Source: Ruegeria sp. YS9
Lineage (GTDB): Bacteria; Pseudomonadota; Alphaproteobacteria; Rhodobacterales; Rhodobacteraceae
DNA: 64,000 bases
Reading direction: 5' to 3'
Assembly: GCF_024628725.1 (NCBI RefSeq)
Contig: NZ_CP102410.1
Location: 310,001 to 374,000 of the forward strand
Shown: positions 2,253-31,668 of the stretch, piece by piece
Position numbering within the stretch: position 1 is the stretch's first letter
How the letters are laid out: every line of letters begins with the position of its first letter
The notes under the pieces: model-generated
What the model saw: only the letters and a program-made list of their open reading frames with translations
What the model was told of the DNA's origin: nothing
The model's database searches: none
Translations under genes and position numbers: made by a program

Positions 2253-2945
2253 TCAATTCGAGCTGTTGTTCAGGAAATCGCGGATGTCGTCACCCGTGGC
2301 AGCAGCGTGCTCCTGCGCATCTTCCTCTTCCAGTGCAGCAGTCACCTTTTCGTATGTTTCCAGGTAGTTGGGTGGCAGGCTGTGGGCGATGCCCTGGTGG
2401 CAATCGATACAGGTCATGCCGCTGTCAATGGCGCGTTGGTGTTCCGACGCGGCGCGTGTTTCCTGAATGGTGAAGTCCATGTAGTCAAAGTTGTGACAGT
2501 TGCGGCACTCGCGGCTGTCAGACGCTTTCATCTTCTTCCACACGGCCGAGGCCATCGCCAGGCGATGTTCCTCGTACTTCTCGGGTGTGCTGATCGTGCC
2601 CGCCAGTTCATGATAGACGTCCTTCACGGCCATGATCTTGGCTTTGATCTTGTGGTTCCACTCATCCGGAACGTGGCAATCGGAACAAATCGCACGCACG
2701 CCCGAGTGGTTGTTGTAGTGGACCGTCTCGCGATACTCGCCCAGGTTCGTTTCCATCGTGTGACAGGACACACAGAACTCTTCGGTGTTGGTCAGTTCCA
2801 GCGTCCAGTGAAACCCACCCCAGAACAGGATACCGGCCAGAAAACCGGCGAGGATCAGAAAGCCCGAGCTGAACATCACTGCCGGTGTCCAGATCGCGTT
2901 CCAGAGGCGACCAAGCAAGCCGCGTTTTTCAGGGGAGTCTGCCAT
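2253..2945 (-). CDS. napC: NapC, membrane-anchored tetraheme quinol dehydrogenase
   Basis: 230 residues. One N-terminal membrane anchor (about 22-45) is followed by a periplasmic NapC/NirT domain with four c-type heme sites: CVSCH 58-62, CSDCH 87-91, CRNCH 147-151 and CIDCH 179-183. It passes electrons from the quinol pool to NapB and NapA. The start at 2945 is chosen because an AAAGGAG ribosome-binding site lies upstream and the anchor then sits at the usual place; a longer in-frame extension overlaps napB. It is the last canonical gene of napFDAGHBC, 29 bp after napB. A second NapC-like domain is fused in the protein at 25510-27294. Confidence 0.97.
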   Translation of the reverse strand: MADSPEKRGLLGRLWNAIWTPAVMFSSGFLILAGFLAGILFWGGFHWTLELTNTEEFCVSCHTMETNLGEYRETVHYNNHSGVRAICSDCHVPDEWNHKIKAKIMAVKDVYHELAGTISTPEKYEEHRLAMASAVWKKMKASDSRECRNCHNFDYMDFTIQETRAASEHQRAIDSGMTCIDCHQGIAHSLPPNYLETYEKVTAALEEEDAQEHAAATGDDIRDFLNNSSN

Positions 2946-2974
2946 GTCGGTGCTCCTTTCAGTCTTGCGTTGGA

Positions 2975-3412
2975 TCAGTTGCCGGCGGAGGGCTGGAACA
3001 CGTTGTCGACCAGCGGCGGTGCGTCCGCCTGCGGTACGTGGCACTGATTGCAGAAGTACCGGGTTCCGGCAATCTTATCCAGTTCGTTGCCATCGCGATC
3101 CAGGTAGTGGGTCATCGACAGGGTCGGTGCGTTGCGCTCGCCGGCCTTGGTCCAGTCATGACAGGACAGGCATTGGTTGGTCCGAATGTCGATCTGGTAT
3201 TGTTCGACCGAATGGGGGATCAACGGTGGCTGCTGGCGATAATTGCGCTGCTGCCGCCCTTCGGCGTTGCGGTGGATCTGATCCAGTGGCACCGGCTCGT
3301 CAACGCCGGCCCCGCGCAGGGATTCGACCTGTGCGGATTGCGCAAGGGCCCATCCGCTCAGCAACACTACGGGTAGAAGGGCAATTCCGCCTGTAACGAT
3401 TGTTCTTTTCAT
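2975..3412 (-). CDS. napB: NapB, diheme cytochrome c subunit of periplasmic nitrate reductase
   Basis: 145 residues. It has a Sec signal peptide (cleavage near WALAQ, residue 25) and two heme c sites, CLSCH 81-85 and CNQCH 121-125, with the conserved PPLIPHSVEQY region between residues 61 and 72 that supplies a distal heme ligand in NapB proteins. It is the small electron-transfer subunit that binds NapA in the periplasm and is reduced by NapC. It lies 12 bp after napH and 29 bp before napC, inside one transcription unit. Length matches the family. Confidence 0.97.
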   Translation of the reverse strand: MKRTIVTGGIALLPVVLLSGWALAQSAQVESLRGAGVDEPVPLDQIHRNAEGRQQRNYRQQPPLIPHSVEQYQIDIRTNQCLSCHDWTKAGERNAPTLSMTHYLDRDGNELDKIAGTRYFCNQCHVPQADAPPLVDNVFQPSAGN

Positions 3413-25052: not shown

Positions 25053-25454
25053 TCAGGGTTCGACGGTGATCATTCCGATCATGTTCTGTGTCTCCCAATG
25101 CGGGCCGCACAGATAGTCCTGTGGACCGGGCGTGAGAAAAGTCAGTTCAACGGATTCCTCGGGGAACAGGCGATCACTTTCAGGTTGGCTGCCATCCTTC
25201 AACAGAACGGAATGGCTGGTGCGTTTGTCGACATTCACCCACCGGACAGTTGTGCCTGCCTTTACGGTCAATTCGGCTGGGCAGAAATTGTATTTGTACA
25301 TCAGCACCACTTCAGCGTCTTCGACGGCCGACGAAGGCTGACCGAACAACTCGACATAGCGCTCTTCGGCCTCGGCGCAGATTTCGGCGGTTTCGTCCGC
25401 CCAGGCGGGCGCGGCCAGAAGCAGCAGCGCGGGAAGAAGGCGTTGGGGTTTCAT
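25053..25454 (-). CDS. periplasmic cupredoxin, probable electron carrier of the nir operon
   Basis: 133 residues from the ATG at 25454, with an AAGGAG ribosome-binding site. A Sec signal (MKPQRLLPALLLLAAPAWA) is followed by a type 1 copper domain: FCPAELTVKAGTTVRWVN (57-74), then His81 in TSHSVLL, Cys116 and His119 in YLCGPHW, and Met125 or Met128. This is a plastocyanin/pseudoazurin-like protein, unusually short in its ligand loop and with an extra N-terminal segment containing Cys26. It lies 55 bp after the fused cytochrome gene and likely shuttles electrons to NirS. The exact subfamily is not clear. Confidence 0.85.
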   Translation of the reverse strand: MKPQRLLPALLLLAAPAWADETAEICAEAEERYVELFGQPSSAVEDAEVVLMYKYNFCPAELTVKAGTTVRWVNVDKRTSHSVLLKDGSQPESDRLFPEESVELTFLTPGPQDYLCGPHWETQNMIGMITVEP

Positions 25455-25509: not shown

Positions 25510-27294
25510 TTATTGTTTGACCACGTTGATGAGCGCGCTGTCATCATCCAGCGCCAGGCTGGTATTCAGCGTCACGTGGTGGAACCTTGCGGCAGCAAAA
25601 TCGTCGTGGATGGCAAAGCCAACGGTATAGGTCTTGCCTGCCTCCAAAGGCACATCACCGGGCGCACCCGAATTCAGGGGGCGCGTAAACACCACGGTCC
25701 ACATGCCACCGGACAGTTCGGCCGATGCGGCGATTTCACCATCATTGACCACGCGCTGCTCCAACAGATAGCCATTGGTGGCGCTTCCGTCGGCGTAGAC
25801 ACGCATCAGGTCAAGATAGGTGCCGTCGACCAGATACTGCTCGATCTGTTCCTCGGCCTTCAGCTTGTCCCAGCCACCCAGGGCCTTGCCGCGGCGACCT
25901 TTGACCTCAACATCGGTGCGGCTTTCGCTGATGTATTTGGTAATGGTGTCCGTGGCATTGAGGCGACCGGCAACATCCGCATTTGCCGCGATCGCATCCG
26001 CTTCGGGCGCAAAAGGCATATAGGTGTTGTCGGCGTGGCACGAGGCCCAGCAGCCCACCTGATCGCCGAGCTCGATACCAGTGCCGGTAATCATCATGGC
26101 AACCTTGATCTGGTTGTCCGGGTCCATCTTGCCGCCATCGACGAACGGGGCAGGGTTGTGACCCGCGTCCGGCCATTGCAGACGAATGTAGAGGTTTTCG
26201 TCGTCATGTGCCGCCTGAACGGTTGCGTCGATGACACCGCGTTTGCCCGGAATGGGAGTCGGTTCAAGATCGCCACCTGCAACGATCTTGTTGCCGATGG
26301 TGTCCAGTTCCTTGGCGTGGCAGGTGGTGCACTGATCCCCGCCTTTGGTCAGGGGGCGTGCGCCACCATGGAACTTGCCGTTCTGGACCCATTCGAAAGA
26401 GGCCTGACCGGGGTAGAACAGCTTCAGATCCGCCGCGGCCACTGCGTTCCAGTCAATGTTGGACGCAACGTCGCTCGCTCCGCCAGAGGGCGCTGCGGCC
26501 TCTTCACCGGAGGCTTTTGCGCGTTCTTCCTCCAAAGCAGCGTCAACAGCCGCTGCGATCTGGGCCTGAACGGCCTCTTGCTGAGCCTTCTTGGCGGCTT
26601 TTTCTGCTTCTGCTTCAGCGGCCTCTTTGGCTTCGATCTTTTCAAGGCTGGCCAGGTATTCCGGGGGTATCGGCCGGATGAAGTCCGGGTTCGGTGCTTC
26701 AAGCTTTTCCAGATACTCTTCGTCCGCCCGGTCGCGTGCATCCGAGTGTGCAATCCCCTTGTGGCAGTCGATACAGGTCTGTCCGACGGTCATCGCATTG
26801 AGGTGCTGCTGACGGGCGCGTGGCTTCTGGAATTCGGGCATCATCGATTCGAAATCGTGACAGTTGCGGCATTCGCGCGAATCGGTGGCCTTCATCCGCT
26901 CCCACTCGTTCATGGCCAGATGCACACGTTTGGCTTCGAACTTTTCGCGGGTGTTGATGGTGCCGACCAATTTGCCATAAAGCTCTTTGGACGCCTTGAT
27001 CTTGCGGATCATCTTATGGGTCCAGTCTTTGGGTACGTGGCAGTCGGAACAGACAGCCCCCACGCCCGACCGGTTCACGTCGTGAATCGTGCCGGTATAT
27101 TCTTCGTAGACAAAATCACGCATCTCGTGACACGAGATACAGAATTCCTTGGTATTCGTAGCTTCCATTGCGGTGTTGAACCCGCCCCAGAAGATGATGC
27201 CGGCGGCAAAGGCCGCGGCGATACCGGCCACAGGCATTCCCCATAGGAAATACCGGCGCCAGATCGGTTTTTTCTTATCCGGTTCGGAGGTCAT
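25510..27294 (-). CDS. NapC/NirT tetraheme domain fused to a second heme-binding domain
   Basis: 594 residues from the ATG at 27294. Residues 17-38 form a membrane anchor. A NapC/NirT domain follows with hemes CISCH 52-56, CSDCH 82-86, CRNCH 142-146 and CIDCH 174-178. Residues 214-268 are a charged Ala/Glu/Lys helical linker. The C-terminal half (about 283-594) has CTTCH 322-326 and CWASCH 415-420 (a CX3CH spacing), and resembles the heme-binding domain of ethylbenzene-dehydrogenase-type enzymes, an assignment made by eye. It lies between nirS and the cupredoxin gene, so it probably carries electrons from quinol to NirS. The longer frame to 27471 lacks family character. Confidence 0.87.
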
Positions 27295-27418: not shown

Positions 27419-29095
27419 TCAGGTGACGTGGTTCGACCGGTTGTAGACGTTGAACTTGCCGGTCGGGGCATAAAGCCCGTCGATGCGGCCGATCTCTTCC
27501 AGCGTCTTGGCGTCGAAGATCACGATCTGACCGTTGGGTTCTTTCGAGTCCGACAGGTTCCACTTGGAGACCCAGACCTCGGTGCCGTCGGCGTTGAATT
27601 CGAAGTGAACAGCAGCGCTGCCTTCGTCTTCGGTGATCTGGATCGTTTTCACGATCTCGCCGGTTTCTTTCGAAATGACCTGTACGGATTGCTGCACTTC
27701 CGGTTCCGGATGCTTGGTCTGGTCAGCCCAGATGTAATCCGAGTTCGGGTGGGTGCGGACGAACAGGCCGGGGCCGTCGGTTTCCACTTCGTAGCAGACT
27801 TTCCAGGCGTCATCCGGACGGTTTTCAGGATCGTTGCCCCAAACGGTCACGGTACCGACACCAAGGTGGGTCGTGCCGGCCACAGGGCCACAGTTCGGGT
27901 CGACCCAGTTGGCGCCCGGACCCGGGTGCGGCAGGGCGGCGGTGTCGATCATCGCCTCAAGCTTGTGGGTTTCGGTATCGACAACCACCATCTTGTTCGA
28001 CGCGTTCGCGGCGATCTGGAAATAGCGGCCCGTCGGGTCAAAGAACCCGTCATGCAGGAACTTGGCGCTGTCGATCTTGTCGATCCGAAGGTTGTCCAGA
28101 TCGGTGTAATCGACCTGCCATAGCTGTCCCAGCTCTTTCACGGCGACGATCCAGGTCGGTTCGTTCGGCGTGGTGTAGATGGCGGCCACGCGGCTTTCTT
28201 CGACATACTCGCCGTCCACGTTCACGCCGCGGGTCGATACGACCTTGAGCGGTTCCATGGTTTGCGCATCAACGATTGCAAAGTGCGGCGGCCAGTAGCC
28301 ACCACCGATGACGTATTTGCCATCGCCGGACACGGCAACGTCGCGGGCGTCATAGGCGATCTTGACTTCGGATACCAACATCTTGTCCGGCGTCTGCCAG
28401 AGGTCGATTTTGGTCATCTTGCCGTCGCGGCCCATGGTGTACCAGAAGCGCCCGGGTTGTTCCGGCTCTTCCAGCGAGTGGTGCTCGGATGCTTTCAGAA
28501 CGTGCACCGCATAACCGGTCGGAATGTGGGTCAGGACCTCTTTGGTGTCACCGTCGATCACGGCCACCTTGCCTACGTCACGTTCGATGACGACAAAGAA
28601 GTTTTCCCAGTTGCGGCCGTGCAGCGGCTCGGTCGGATAGTCCTCTTCTTCGACGTAAACCTTGCGGGTCGCCTTCATCTGTTCCAGCGACATTTCAGGC
28701 GGTTTCGGCGGCTCCATCATGATGTAGGTCGCCATGTCCTTGATTTCCTGCTCGGTCATGATGTCCGAGAAGTTGTTCATGCCGCCTTCGGTTCCCCAGG
28801 CGATAATCTTTTCAAGGCGTTCCTGCCCCAGTTTAAGGGTGCCGCCTTCGGTGACCGTGCCGTCGGCTGCGGTCTTCTTCCAATGCGGTTCCAGGTTTTT
28901 ACCCGTGGCCCCTTTGCGCAAAACGCCGTGGCAGCCTGCGCATTGTTCGAAATAGAGCTGTTTAGACGATTCAAAGGCTTCTTCGCTCAAAGTTGGCTCT
29001 TCGGCGAAGGTCGGAGCAGCGACGCTGCCCAACAACATTGCCAATCCGACCCCAAAGGCGCGGCCGGGTTTGTTGTAGCTGATTCCAAGTGACAT
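27419..29095 (-). CDS. nirS: NirS, cytochrome cd1 nitrite reductase
   Basis: 558 residues from the ATG at 29095, with a GGAGAG site upstream; a GTG two codons earlier is also in frame. It reduces nitrite to NO in the periplasm. A signal peptide (to about residue 31) is followed by a cytochrome c domain with CAGCHG (heme at 52-56) and an eight-bladed d1 propeller. Likely d1 ligand and active-site histidines are H198 (TGYAVHV), H390 (ALPHPGPG) and H410 (GTTHLG). It is the first gene of the nir region, preceded by a perfect DNR-like palindrome at 29158-29171. The fused cytochrome gene begins 124 bp downstream. Confidence 0.98.
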
Positions 29096-29157
29096 GATCA
29101 CTCTCCATATGCGTGGTGAGGCGCTGCCGAGAGTGAAACATCACGTGGATGTCATCC

Positions 29158-29171
29158 TTGACCAAAGTCAA
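29158..29171. promoter_or_regulatory. DNR-like box of nirS (perfect palindrome)
   Basis: TTGAC-CAAA-GTCAA, 10 of 10 matches, centred 69.5 nt upstream of the nirS start. It is the best site in the window and the reference for the consensus used here. Confidence 0.8.
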
Positions 29172-30537: not shown

Positions 30538-30556
30538 CGCCTGTTCGGGCGGCGTC
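30536..30556. terminator. short hairpin between convergent nnrS and Hint-protein genes
   Basis: GACGCC and GGCGTC flank a 9-base loop and overlap the two stop codons. The stem is only six pairs and has no T-run, so this is a weak candidate for a shared terminator. Confidence 0.3.
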
Positions 30557-31668
30557 TATCGTCCAGCGATCAGAGGCCGCGCGTTCTTGATATGACGATG
30601 GACCAAAGCCCGAGCGCGTTTCCCTTTTTCCGGGATCCGTCTTGCGGCCAGCGGAACGTAATTGCGCTGATCCAATTCAGGGAACAGTTCAAGAATTTCC
30701 GCCCTTGCGTCCGGGTGAACACTGGACAGGGCCTGTGCGCCGGTGAGCAGGCTTTCGGAAGGTGCACCTTCCGCATAGATGATTTCATGACGGTCGAACA
30801 AAAGATGAACATAGGTCACCGCACGGGTGTCATCAGCGATTGAAATGCCAGGCACGCCGACAAGAATGTGAGCAGGAACAAGAACCTCTTCGGCGTCGAA
30901 CATTCTGACGGCAATCGGCGACCGGACCAGCATGCGGTGTTGCGGTGACACGAACAGATCACGCTCGGGCAACTGATCGCCCAGTGAACCGGCCTCGATC
31001 CGGATGGGCTTCAGCCTGGGACGGGCGCGAAGCGCCGCTTGGTCCAGATGTCGCGTGCCAATCCAGCGTATGTGTTGCGGCCCATTGTCCGCGGTCAAAA
31101 CGACATCGCCAACTTTCAGATCCTCGATCGGAGTTGGACCGGTTGGGGTCATGATCCGTGTTCCGGTAACAAAGCAGGGTACATCGACAATCGTGGTGGG
31201 GTCCGTCGTGTCAGGGGCGTTGGTCGGGGTAACGTTCGAAACCTGGAACGTATAGGTCAGGCCCGGAACCAGGGGCTCGGACGTGATGTATCCGACCAAT
31301 GTGCCCTCGACTTCGACCCGAAACACATCGATCGTTCCGCCCGATGGATTGGTCAGGGAATAGGATTCTTCAAGGTAGATGTCTCCGTTGGCAAAAGTGG
31401 TCGATCCGTCCAGGTTGGTCACCACACCTGTTTGCGTGGCGTCGTCACCGTTTTCGTTGTTGAATCGGTCACCATTGAACACAGTGCCGGTATCGGGCAG
31501 AGGGTTCGCCCCGTTCAGGATCGTTCCGCCAGCTGCATCGGTTACATCAAATACACGACGGTCTGTTGCGGGGTCGAAATTGGGGTCAAGCGTAATGAAA
31601 TCGGGGCCGAGGTTGAAATCGACCGTAATGACCCCGGGGGCGTAACCAATATAGGAATAGTTTGCCAT
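30556..31668 (-). CDS. Hint-domain protein (Hedgehog/intein-type module)
   Basis: 370 residues. The N-terminal half (1-165) is acidic, rich in Asp, Asn, Gly and Thr, with no signal peptide, and resembles repeat-rich secreted proteins. From VPCFVTGTRIMTPTGPTPIEDL (split: CFVTGTRI near 168, then PTGPTPIEDLKVGD) it is a Hint domain with an SPQHRML motif near residue 245. Such proteins are common in Rhodobacterales; the Hint part may cleave itself from the N-terminal part. It sits between nnrS and norC on the opposite strand and has no evident role in denitrification. Confidence 0.85.
   Translation of the reverse strand: MANYSYIGYAPGVITVDFNLGPDFITLDPNFDPATDRRVFDVTDAAGGTILNGANPLPDTGTVFNGDRFNNENGDDATQTGVVTNLDGSTTFANGDIYLEESYSLTNPSGGTIDVFRVEVEGTLVGYITSEPLVPGLTYTFQVSNVTPTNAPDTTDPTTIVDVPCFVTGTRIMTPTGPTPIEDLKVGDVVLTADNGPQHIRWIGTRHLDQAALRARPRLKPIRIEAGSLGDQLPERDLFVSPQHRMLVRSPIAVRMFDAEEVLVPAHILVGVPGISIADDTRAVTYVHLLFDRHEIIYAEGAPSESLLTGAQALSSVHPDARAEILELFPELDQRNYVPLAARRIPEKGKRARALVHRHIKNARPLIAGR

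Follow-up and report, generated by a model that had tools for sequence, protein, structure and literature searches.

A fused NirT-NirB protein encoded beside nirS in Ruegeria sp. YS9: a likely quinol-fed electron donor to cytochrome cd1 nitrite reductase

The nirTB gene, its domains and its neighborhood

The window, that is, the whole stretch of 64,000 nucleotides analyzed here, carries within its nir cluster a gene for a two-domain protein, nirTB (Table 1). Its frame lies on the minus strand, opening with an ATG at 27294 and closing with a stop at 25510-25512, and translates into 594 residues with zero internal stops; the coordinates and length given in the first-pass annotation therefore hold, and the strand, absent from it, can be added. 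A plus-strand open frame (25513-27246, 577 residues) gives no Pfam match at E 0.001 and was discarded as a gene. Also, an assembly artefact is ruled out by 80 named loci, retained out of 283 relatives counted in a contig scan, being the two-domain protein nearly full length in all 80. A search of the own genome with nirTB returned one full-length copy and one further match, corresponding to a separate NapC (window 2373-2855).

Table 1. Features of the nirTB locus and related gene pairs. Coordinates are those of the window, except in the last row, where they are those of each locus.
Feature	Position	Strand	Basis
nirTB, fused NirT (tetraheme quinol dehydrogenase) and NirB (diheme cytochrome)	25510..27294	-	Translation, Pfam, 80 named homologous loci
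NapC/NirT domain, residues 25-184, four CXXCH	26743..27222	-	PF03264, 2.7e-69
Linker, residues 185-280, Ala/Glu/Lys-rich, predicted helix about 211-261	26455..26742	-	Structure model and linker comparison
NirB domain, residues 281-594	25513..26454	-	PF09459, 6.3e-34, and homology to unfused NirB
Heme attachment motif CTTCH, residues 322-326	26317..26331	-	Cys, Cys and His kept in 104/104 aligned domains
Heme attachment motif CWASCH, residues 415-420	26035..26052	-	Cys, Cys and His kept in 104/104 aligned domains
Cupredoxin	25053..25454	-	PF00127, 1.9e-07; signal peptide and His-Cys-His-Met type-1 copper ligands (by eye)
nirS, cytochrome cd1 nitrite reductase, likely electron acceptor	27419..29101	-	PF02239, 8.8e-118, and cytochrome c domain
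FNR/Dnr-like palindrome TTGACCAAAGTCAA between nirS and nnrS	29158..29171	.	Single TTGAN6TCAA match in the window
Separate napC of the nap operon	2253-3044		NapC match at 2373-2855
NapC and NirB-type pairs by sulfide dehydrogenase genes	L210:3546-7259, L211:2843-6549, L238:3950-7454, L237:4238-8060 (fused)		Pfam

The N-terminal half matches PF03264 with 232.8 bits, above the curated cut-off of 24.1, and the four CXXCH sites that had been placed within a NapC/NirT domain at 52-178 are found in the translation at residues 52-56, 82-86, 142-146 and 174-178. An N-terminal membrane helix overlaps the start of this domain and appears as a helix at 11-46 in the low-confidence structure model. The NCBIfam model TIGR02161 (185 positions) aligns over residues 22-180 with an E value of 2.5e-79 and 265.5 bits, below its whole-protein cut-off of 310.6; the domain is there, yet the protein falls outside this model.

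Following this domain, the charged helical linker of the earlier reading is predicted as a helix by the low-pLDDT model, with block pLDDT values of 62-75 for residues 211-250 and 55 for 251-260. The gap occupied by the linker ranges from 82 to 121 residues (median 103) in 107 ORFs, counted one per locus, with some genes entered as two loci and one being the non-nir fusion L237; the linker of nirTB has about 95 residues. The mean pLDDT was 50.7 for the full-length model, built with 36 close sequences, and 59.9 for the NirB-domain model, built with 49.

The C-terminal half, which had been likened by eye to the heme-binding part of ethylbenzene-dehydrogenase-type proteins, is covered from residue 283 to 574 by PF09459 (EB_dh), with 118.5 bits against a cut-off of 33.3. 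The profile search confirms the likeness and, since the fold search also gives EB_dh, an unrelated non-heme fold is ruled out. Both heme motifs expected in this half are present, the second being a CX3CH and not a CX2CH motif, and both are retained in 93/93 fused and 10/10 other NirB-type domains of an alignment that omitted exact duplicates, pieces under 250 residues and copies of the window's own gene, and whose ten non-fused rows include L204, which is truncated where its contig ends and could belong to a fusion. Because both motifs are kept in all the aligned domains, the CX3CH motif is not a chance occurrence. In the same alignment His 563, His 572 and Lys 453 are invariant and Met 401 is nearly invariant, these four residues being candidate axial ligands only. 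Judged from its attachment motifs, then, the NirB domain would hold two c hemes.

Upstream of nirTB, nirS ends 124 nt before the nirTB start; downstream, the cupredoxin starts 55 nt away, if the Met before its signal peptide is the start. The cupredoxin is followed by nirE, nirF, nirD/L, nirG, nirH, nirJ and nirN, named from their Pfam domains and order, and the nir-operon setting proposed for nirTB is thus borne out, with nirS on its 5' side and the cupredoxin and d1-type genes on its 3' side. Beyond the nir genes lie a nosR-type gene, further nos genes and nap genes, and on the other side of the cluster nnrS, norC and further nor genes; nosZ, nosD, norB, norQ, norD and the nap genes except napC were named by order and length. 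Also, an ORF of 370 residues with a Hint_2 domain (6.2e-57) is located between nnrS and norC (window 30556-31668, minus strand). The number of TTGAN6TCAA matches is at chance level, with a shuffle mean of 0.77 and at least one match in 59/100 shuffles. The palindrome TTGACCAAAGTCAA is kept as a lead to a possible nirS regulatory site because of its position and because a like FNR/Dnr site drives nirS in Dinoroseobacter shibae (PMC5398030). The operon of that species is given in the text of the same source as nirSECFDGHJN, a listing without nirT or nirB.

Split relatives, fusion point and fusion history

Seven clusters from other genomes (L110, L111 and L232-L236) contain nirS, nirT and nirB as separate genes, with a two-heme cytochrome sitting between nirS and nirT in L235. 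The seven split NirT proteins share 58-69% identity with the N-terminal half of nirTB, and all eight unfused NirB proteins compared (L239 included) share 31-43% identity with the C-terminal half over nearly its whole length. Because the seven clusters align with both halves, the C-terminal half is assigned, on alignment grounds, to NirB, the diheme cytochrome encoded after nirT in split clusters; the comparison behind this identity is with the NirB of those clusters. As for variants in gene content, L239 (genome G846) shows nirS, nirB and a cupredoxin without nirT, and L233 and L234 each contain two nirS-type ORFs, with nirT, nirB and a cupredoxin in between.

In the split form, the signal peptide of NirB, identified by eye, stops right before A-PDWSKV or a similar sequence. 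Where the mature split protein begins with this PDWSKV-type sequence, the fused chain has IDWNAV. In the alignment, the fusion joins NirB at its mature N-terminus and the linker replaces the signal peptide of the split form; the split NirB has a signal peptide of its own, whereas the fused one is without it.

Regarding the history of the fusion, the tree of NirT domains requires two changes for 30 fused rows, with one change in 8% of the bootstrap trees, and a single fusion event for these rows was not recovered in it. The same 30 fused domains are on one side of a branch in the NirB tree (SH-aLRT 92; a quick tree with no bootstrap). Moreover, a second NapC-NirB fusion was found in L237, a protein of 603 residues matching PF03264 and PF09459, being a single case from a draft genome. 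It clusters with split pairs of another kind, with a support of 97 on a starred branch in the NirB tree and of 100/100 in the NirT-domain tree. Because L237 groups apart from the 30 nir fusions in the NirB tree, the joining of a NapC-type with a NirB-type protein has probably happened on two or more occasions, as judged from the trees. The linker of L237 is Ala/Pro-rich, whereas a charged helix is present in most nir fusions. The genes of flavocytochrome c sulfide dehydrogenase adjoin L237 and likewise three split pairs (L210, L211 and L238); they comprise an ORF for a cytochrome c and one for a flavoprotein (PF21706 and PF09242), the latter confirmed by Pfam in the four cases. In this setting, the NapC and NirB pair may link sulfide oxidation to quinone.

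Association of the fusion with one NirS lineage and with a cupredoxin

In 80/80 named loci (80 of the 283 relatives) nirS is upstream of nirTB. This adjacency bears on the idea that NirTB serves the periplasmic nitrate reductase NapA, like the NapC+NapO pair of Azospira. Homology to that pair as described in PMC5845722 and the nap operon in the window speak for it; however, this operon has its own separate napC (Table 1) and the named loci place nirTB by nirS, making this role barely credible and the least probable one considered.

The fusion follows one kind of NirS. Where NirS is at least 59% identical to the one in the window (near NirS), the fusion follows nirS in 18 of 19 distinct sampled genomes, own included, a count that pools the family, the phylum and two order samples. 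For distant NirS (<59% identity) it is found in 0/87 rows; the sequence available downstream is shorter than 3.5 kb in 12 of these and shorter than 1.9 kb in 8. The own-family sample comprises 149 genomes, own included, 32 of them with NirS: the seven whose NirS is 84-100% identical all carry the fusion, and the 25 with only a 45-48% identical NirS give no NirB match at E 1e-10. Two further matches to the NirB query appear in the family, one being a partial NirB at the beginning of a contig, with a cupredoxin, nirE and nirF after it (G506, L204), and the other a different EB_dh protein of 473 residues (G500, L216). In the phylum sample, NirS is present in 50 of 398 genomes; six have a NirS at least 59% identical and five of these carry the fusion, the exception being G103 (L108), with the cupredoxin present and NirTB absent. 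Among the other 44, a split nirT-nirB occurs in two (G364 and G023). Moreover, G479 and G683 each hold both kinds of NirS, and the fusion is found only beside the near one.

A NirS tree was built with 121 rows: the one from the window, all 105 nirS rows of the samples and 15 taken from the 80 named loci. NirS was trimmed to its last 575 residues where longer, the NirS of L232-L239 were left out, and six rows with less than 900 nt of downstream sequence were labeled as edge; long branches, including L108 and L109, drew a warning from the program. A starred branch sets apart 34 rows, of which 33 are fused. When a hand-picked set of 60 NirS was rooted with 10 NirN sequences, the base was left behind branches of length 2.76, and hence no direction of gain or loss of the fusion is claimed.

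Fused rows span several family codes and, by kinship code, are also found outside the own class, so that the fusion goes with the NirS lineage and not with the taxonomic family. Clade patterns of this type have been described: in Stutzerimonas, clade 1b is the NirS clade that nirT and nirB accompany (PMC13086519), and the nirBEFJNT content varies among NirS clades (PMC10999283). The link found here extends these patterns. In another deep NirS clade, a NapC-family protein of 219-249 residues with five CXXCH is encoded near nirS (L117, L118, L122, L126, L134 and L135), and further downstream of nirS in L120, which suggests that another type of quinol dehydrogenase is also associated with NirS. 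As to the replicons, relatives 78-98% identical to nirTB are located on plasmid records of 179-811 kb from Ruegeria sp. THAF33, AD91A and B32 and from Aliiroseovarius sp. M344, and therefore the gene is extrachromosomal in some strains; also, a plasmid of Azospirillum brasilense carries a relative with 52% identity over 77% of the query.

The same counts weigh on a possible role of NirTB in making NirS, through the chemistry of heme d1 or through assembly, and not in supplying electrons for catalysis. For this role, nirTB is placed between nirS and the d1 genes, and nirT and nirB are listed among the genes for heme biosynthesis and assembly of NirS in PMC10999283. Nonetheless, in 80 of the 105 sampled nirS rows no nearby NirT, NirB or NapC was detected (for 12 rows the downstream sequence is shorter than 3.5 kb), many of these 80 still have nirF and other d1 genes, and the homologous pairs of Azospira work for reductases of nitrate and perchlorate (PMC5845722). 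We regard such a role as very improbable.

The second element associated with the fusion is the cupredoxin. It was detected on the nirS strand within 3.5 kb downstream in 95/97 fused rows (80 named and 17 sampled, with the same gene twice in some, as for L062 and L157 with identical NirS), and was not detected for L058 and L106; the result was the same 95/97 when only the first four labeled ORFs were considered. Among the rows labeled 'none' with enough sequence, it was found in 1/68, this one being L108, itself a near NirS. A same-strand cupredoxin is present in 0/6 rows with a NapC nearby (L122 has one on the opposite strand), in 0/2 split rows and in 0/12 edge rows. Of the split clusters, a cupredoxin was labeled beside nirB in L233, L234, L235 and L239 and was not detected beside the pairs of L110, L111, L232 and L236; the query was the window's own protein, so divergent cupredoxins may be missed. 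The cupredoxin may shuttle electrons from NirB to NirS, or it may work in parallel as a carrier fed by bc1. This leads to a variant of the quinol-fed reading with another last step, where NirTB would reduce the adjacent cupredoxin and this protein would diffuse to NirS, NirB never touching NirS. The frequencies just given for fused and 'none' rows, together with the cupredoxins beside split nirB, favor this variant, but the fused and split cases with none detected do not, and bc1 could equally feed a cupredoxin that serves NirS in parallel, L108 having a cupredoxin without NirTB. We consider it a plausible route, although its chances fall somewhat short of even.

Electron flow and comparison with known systems

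NapC/NirT proteins oxidize quinol at the membrane and pass the electrons to periplasmic partners. In line with its domains and neighbors, the protein is very likely a NirTB that feeds NirS with electrons from the membrane quinol pool. In this mechanism, the membrane-anchored tetraheme NirT domain would oxidize quinol, its four hemes would pass the electrons to the two c hemes of the NirB domain, and this domain, held in the periplasm on the helical tether, would deliver them to NirS, directly or via the adjacent cupredoxin; we infer both the direction of electron flow and the contact partner of NirB. Published data fit several of these steps. For example, Stutzerimonas perfectomarina ZoBell requires NirT to reduce nitrite, and a fused NirTB has been taken to suggest a functional pair (both in PMC13086519), and the route from NirT to NirB and then to NirS is implied in PMC8954225. 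Also, the chromate fitness screen of P. stutzeri RCH2 includes Psest_0817, a gene named 'ethylbenzene dehydrogenase' whose number is two above that of nirS (0815) and whose fitness values are similar (PMC5554334). In Azospira suillum, NapC+NapO and PcrQ+PcrO are described as redundant electron carriers to NapAB and PcrABC; strains deleted for napC or napO no longer grow on nitrate, and those lacking pcrQ or pcrO still grow on perchlorate, only more slowly (PMC5845722). On the other hand, NirB is also made by Rhodocyclus species, which have no denitrification genes (PMC8954225), and NirB can thus have other roles.

Most likely, the fusion carries electrons from quinol to NirS without bc1. However, bc1 is present in the own genome, as judged by its cytochrome c1, and L108 has a near NirS with no NirTB, for which reason we infer, and do not observe, independence from bc1; by the same locus, NirS of the near lineage can do without NirTB. 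A different view would be NirTB as an auxiliary or activating donor, with bc1 and either cytochrome c or the cupredoxin carrying the bulk of the electrons, in one of two modes: NirTB would activate NirS reductively, or it would drain quinol when the bc1 branch is limiting. The presence of cytochrome c1 in 25/26 genomes examined (it is missing from G576, 83% complete) and the near NirS of L108 agree with this view, as does the proposal that NirT may catalytically activate cytochrome cd1, for which PMC13086519 cites Zajicek 2004 on Paracoccus NapC. Against it stand the need of NirT for functional nitrite reduction in strain ZoBell, according to the same source, and the near-complete retention of NirTB with this NirS lineage, and we find it rather unlikely. 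Moreover, the linkage could reflect shared inheritance of NirS and NirTB in a single operon, with no tight functional bond between them.

Schemes of NirS usually show bc1 and a small cytochrome as its donors. Going further from the quinol-fed reading, the deep-lineage NirS, NirTB and the cupredoxin would constitute a dedicated quinol:nitrite oxidoreductase unit that replaces bc1 and cytochrome c as the main donor; such a replacement would conserve less energy than in classical NirS denitrifiers, in marine Alphaproteobacteria and some other Proteobacteria; and the NapC and NirB module would be plugged into other systems, among them the second fusion beside flavocytochrome c sulfide dehydrogenase genes, where electrons may run in the opposite direction, into quinone. 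These three statements are offered jointly as a speculation, doubtful as a whole. Kept beside NirS throughout a lineage, NirTB and the cupredoxin would change the energy that these bacteria gain from nitrite, and would also affect the competition of nitrite and nitrate for electrons, a question raised for Stutzerimonas in PMC13086519. In any case, the fusion is fusion-protein evidence for NirT and NirB acting as a pair, and with both heme parts in one chain it provides a handy single-gene target for the route from NirT through NirB to NirS.

Many denitrifiers make NirT and NirB separately, and a fusion of both is already in print (PMC13086519), this being the only paper retrieved by a literature search for NirTB. 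The search for nirT, nirS and a cupredoxin together retrieved only papers on Bacillus and Thermus. The tie of the fusion with one NirS lineage and a cupredoxin was not found in print, nor were the fusion point at the mature NirB end and the second fusion, for which the searches were not specifically worded. What is added here, namely the NirS-lineage link, the cupredoxin link, the fusion point and the second fusion, amounts to useful details on a known kind of protein.

The closest published case is Halomonas sp. 2A, a nitrite-accumulating denitrifier whose fused NirTB is named in PMC13086519 citing Li et al. 2018. There, NirTB is also one chain, a likeness by description, whereas the present one is found in a Ruegeria-type genome with a cupredoxin downstream. 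The pairs of Azospira suillum, NapC+NapO and PcrQ+PcrO, likewise combine a NapC-family quinol dehydrogenase with a diheme EB_dh-family cytochrome and are also likened by description, but they are separate proteins and work for nitrate and perchlorate reductases (PMC5845722).

With respect to the heme b gamma subunits EbdC (2ivf_C) and Kuenenia NXR-C (7b04_C), the NirB domain has the same fold. However, these subunits bind one b-type heme each and are paired with a molybdenum enzyme (PMC8387239), whereas the NirB domain has two c-type attachment motifs and a nir operon setting. Identity as a molybdoenzyme gamma subunit was rejected, as TIGR03477 gives 39.4 bits against a cut-off of 169.85. A TorC-type pentaheme protein was also rejected, with TIGR02162 reaching 235.5 bits against a cut-off of 478.2 and covering only residues 15-225. 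TorC/DorC proteins have a NapC-type domain followed by an extra heme domain, this C-terminal domain not being known as EB_dh.

Finally, the nirSTBM cluster of Pseudomonas stutzeri, reportedly described by Jungst in 1991, also encodes NirT and then NirB after nirS, but as separate genes, with a signal peptide of its own on NirB. L111, with the order nirS, nirT, nirB, small cytochromes and nirF, and with norC and norQ-like genes upstream, has an arrangement that we take to be like that of P. stutzeri. In L111 it is small cytochromes that come after nirB, whereas in the window the cupredoxin is found instead.
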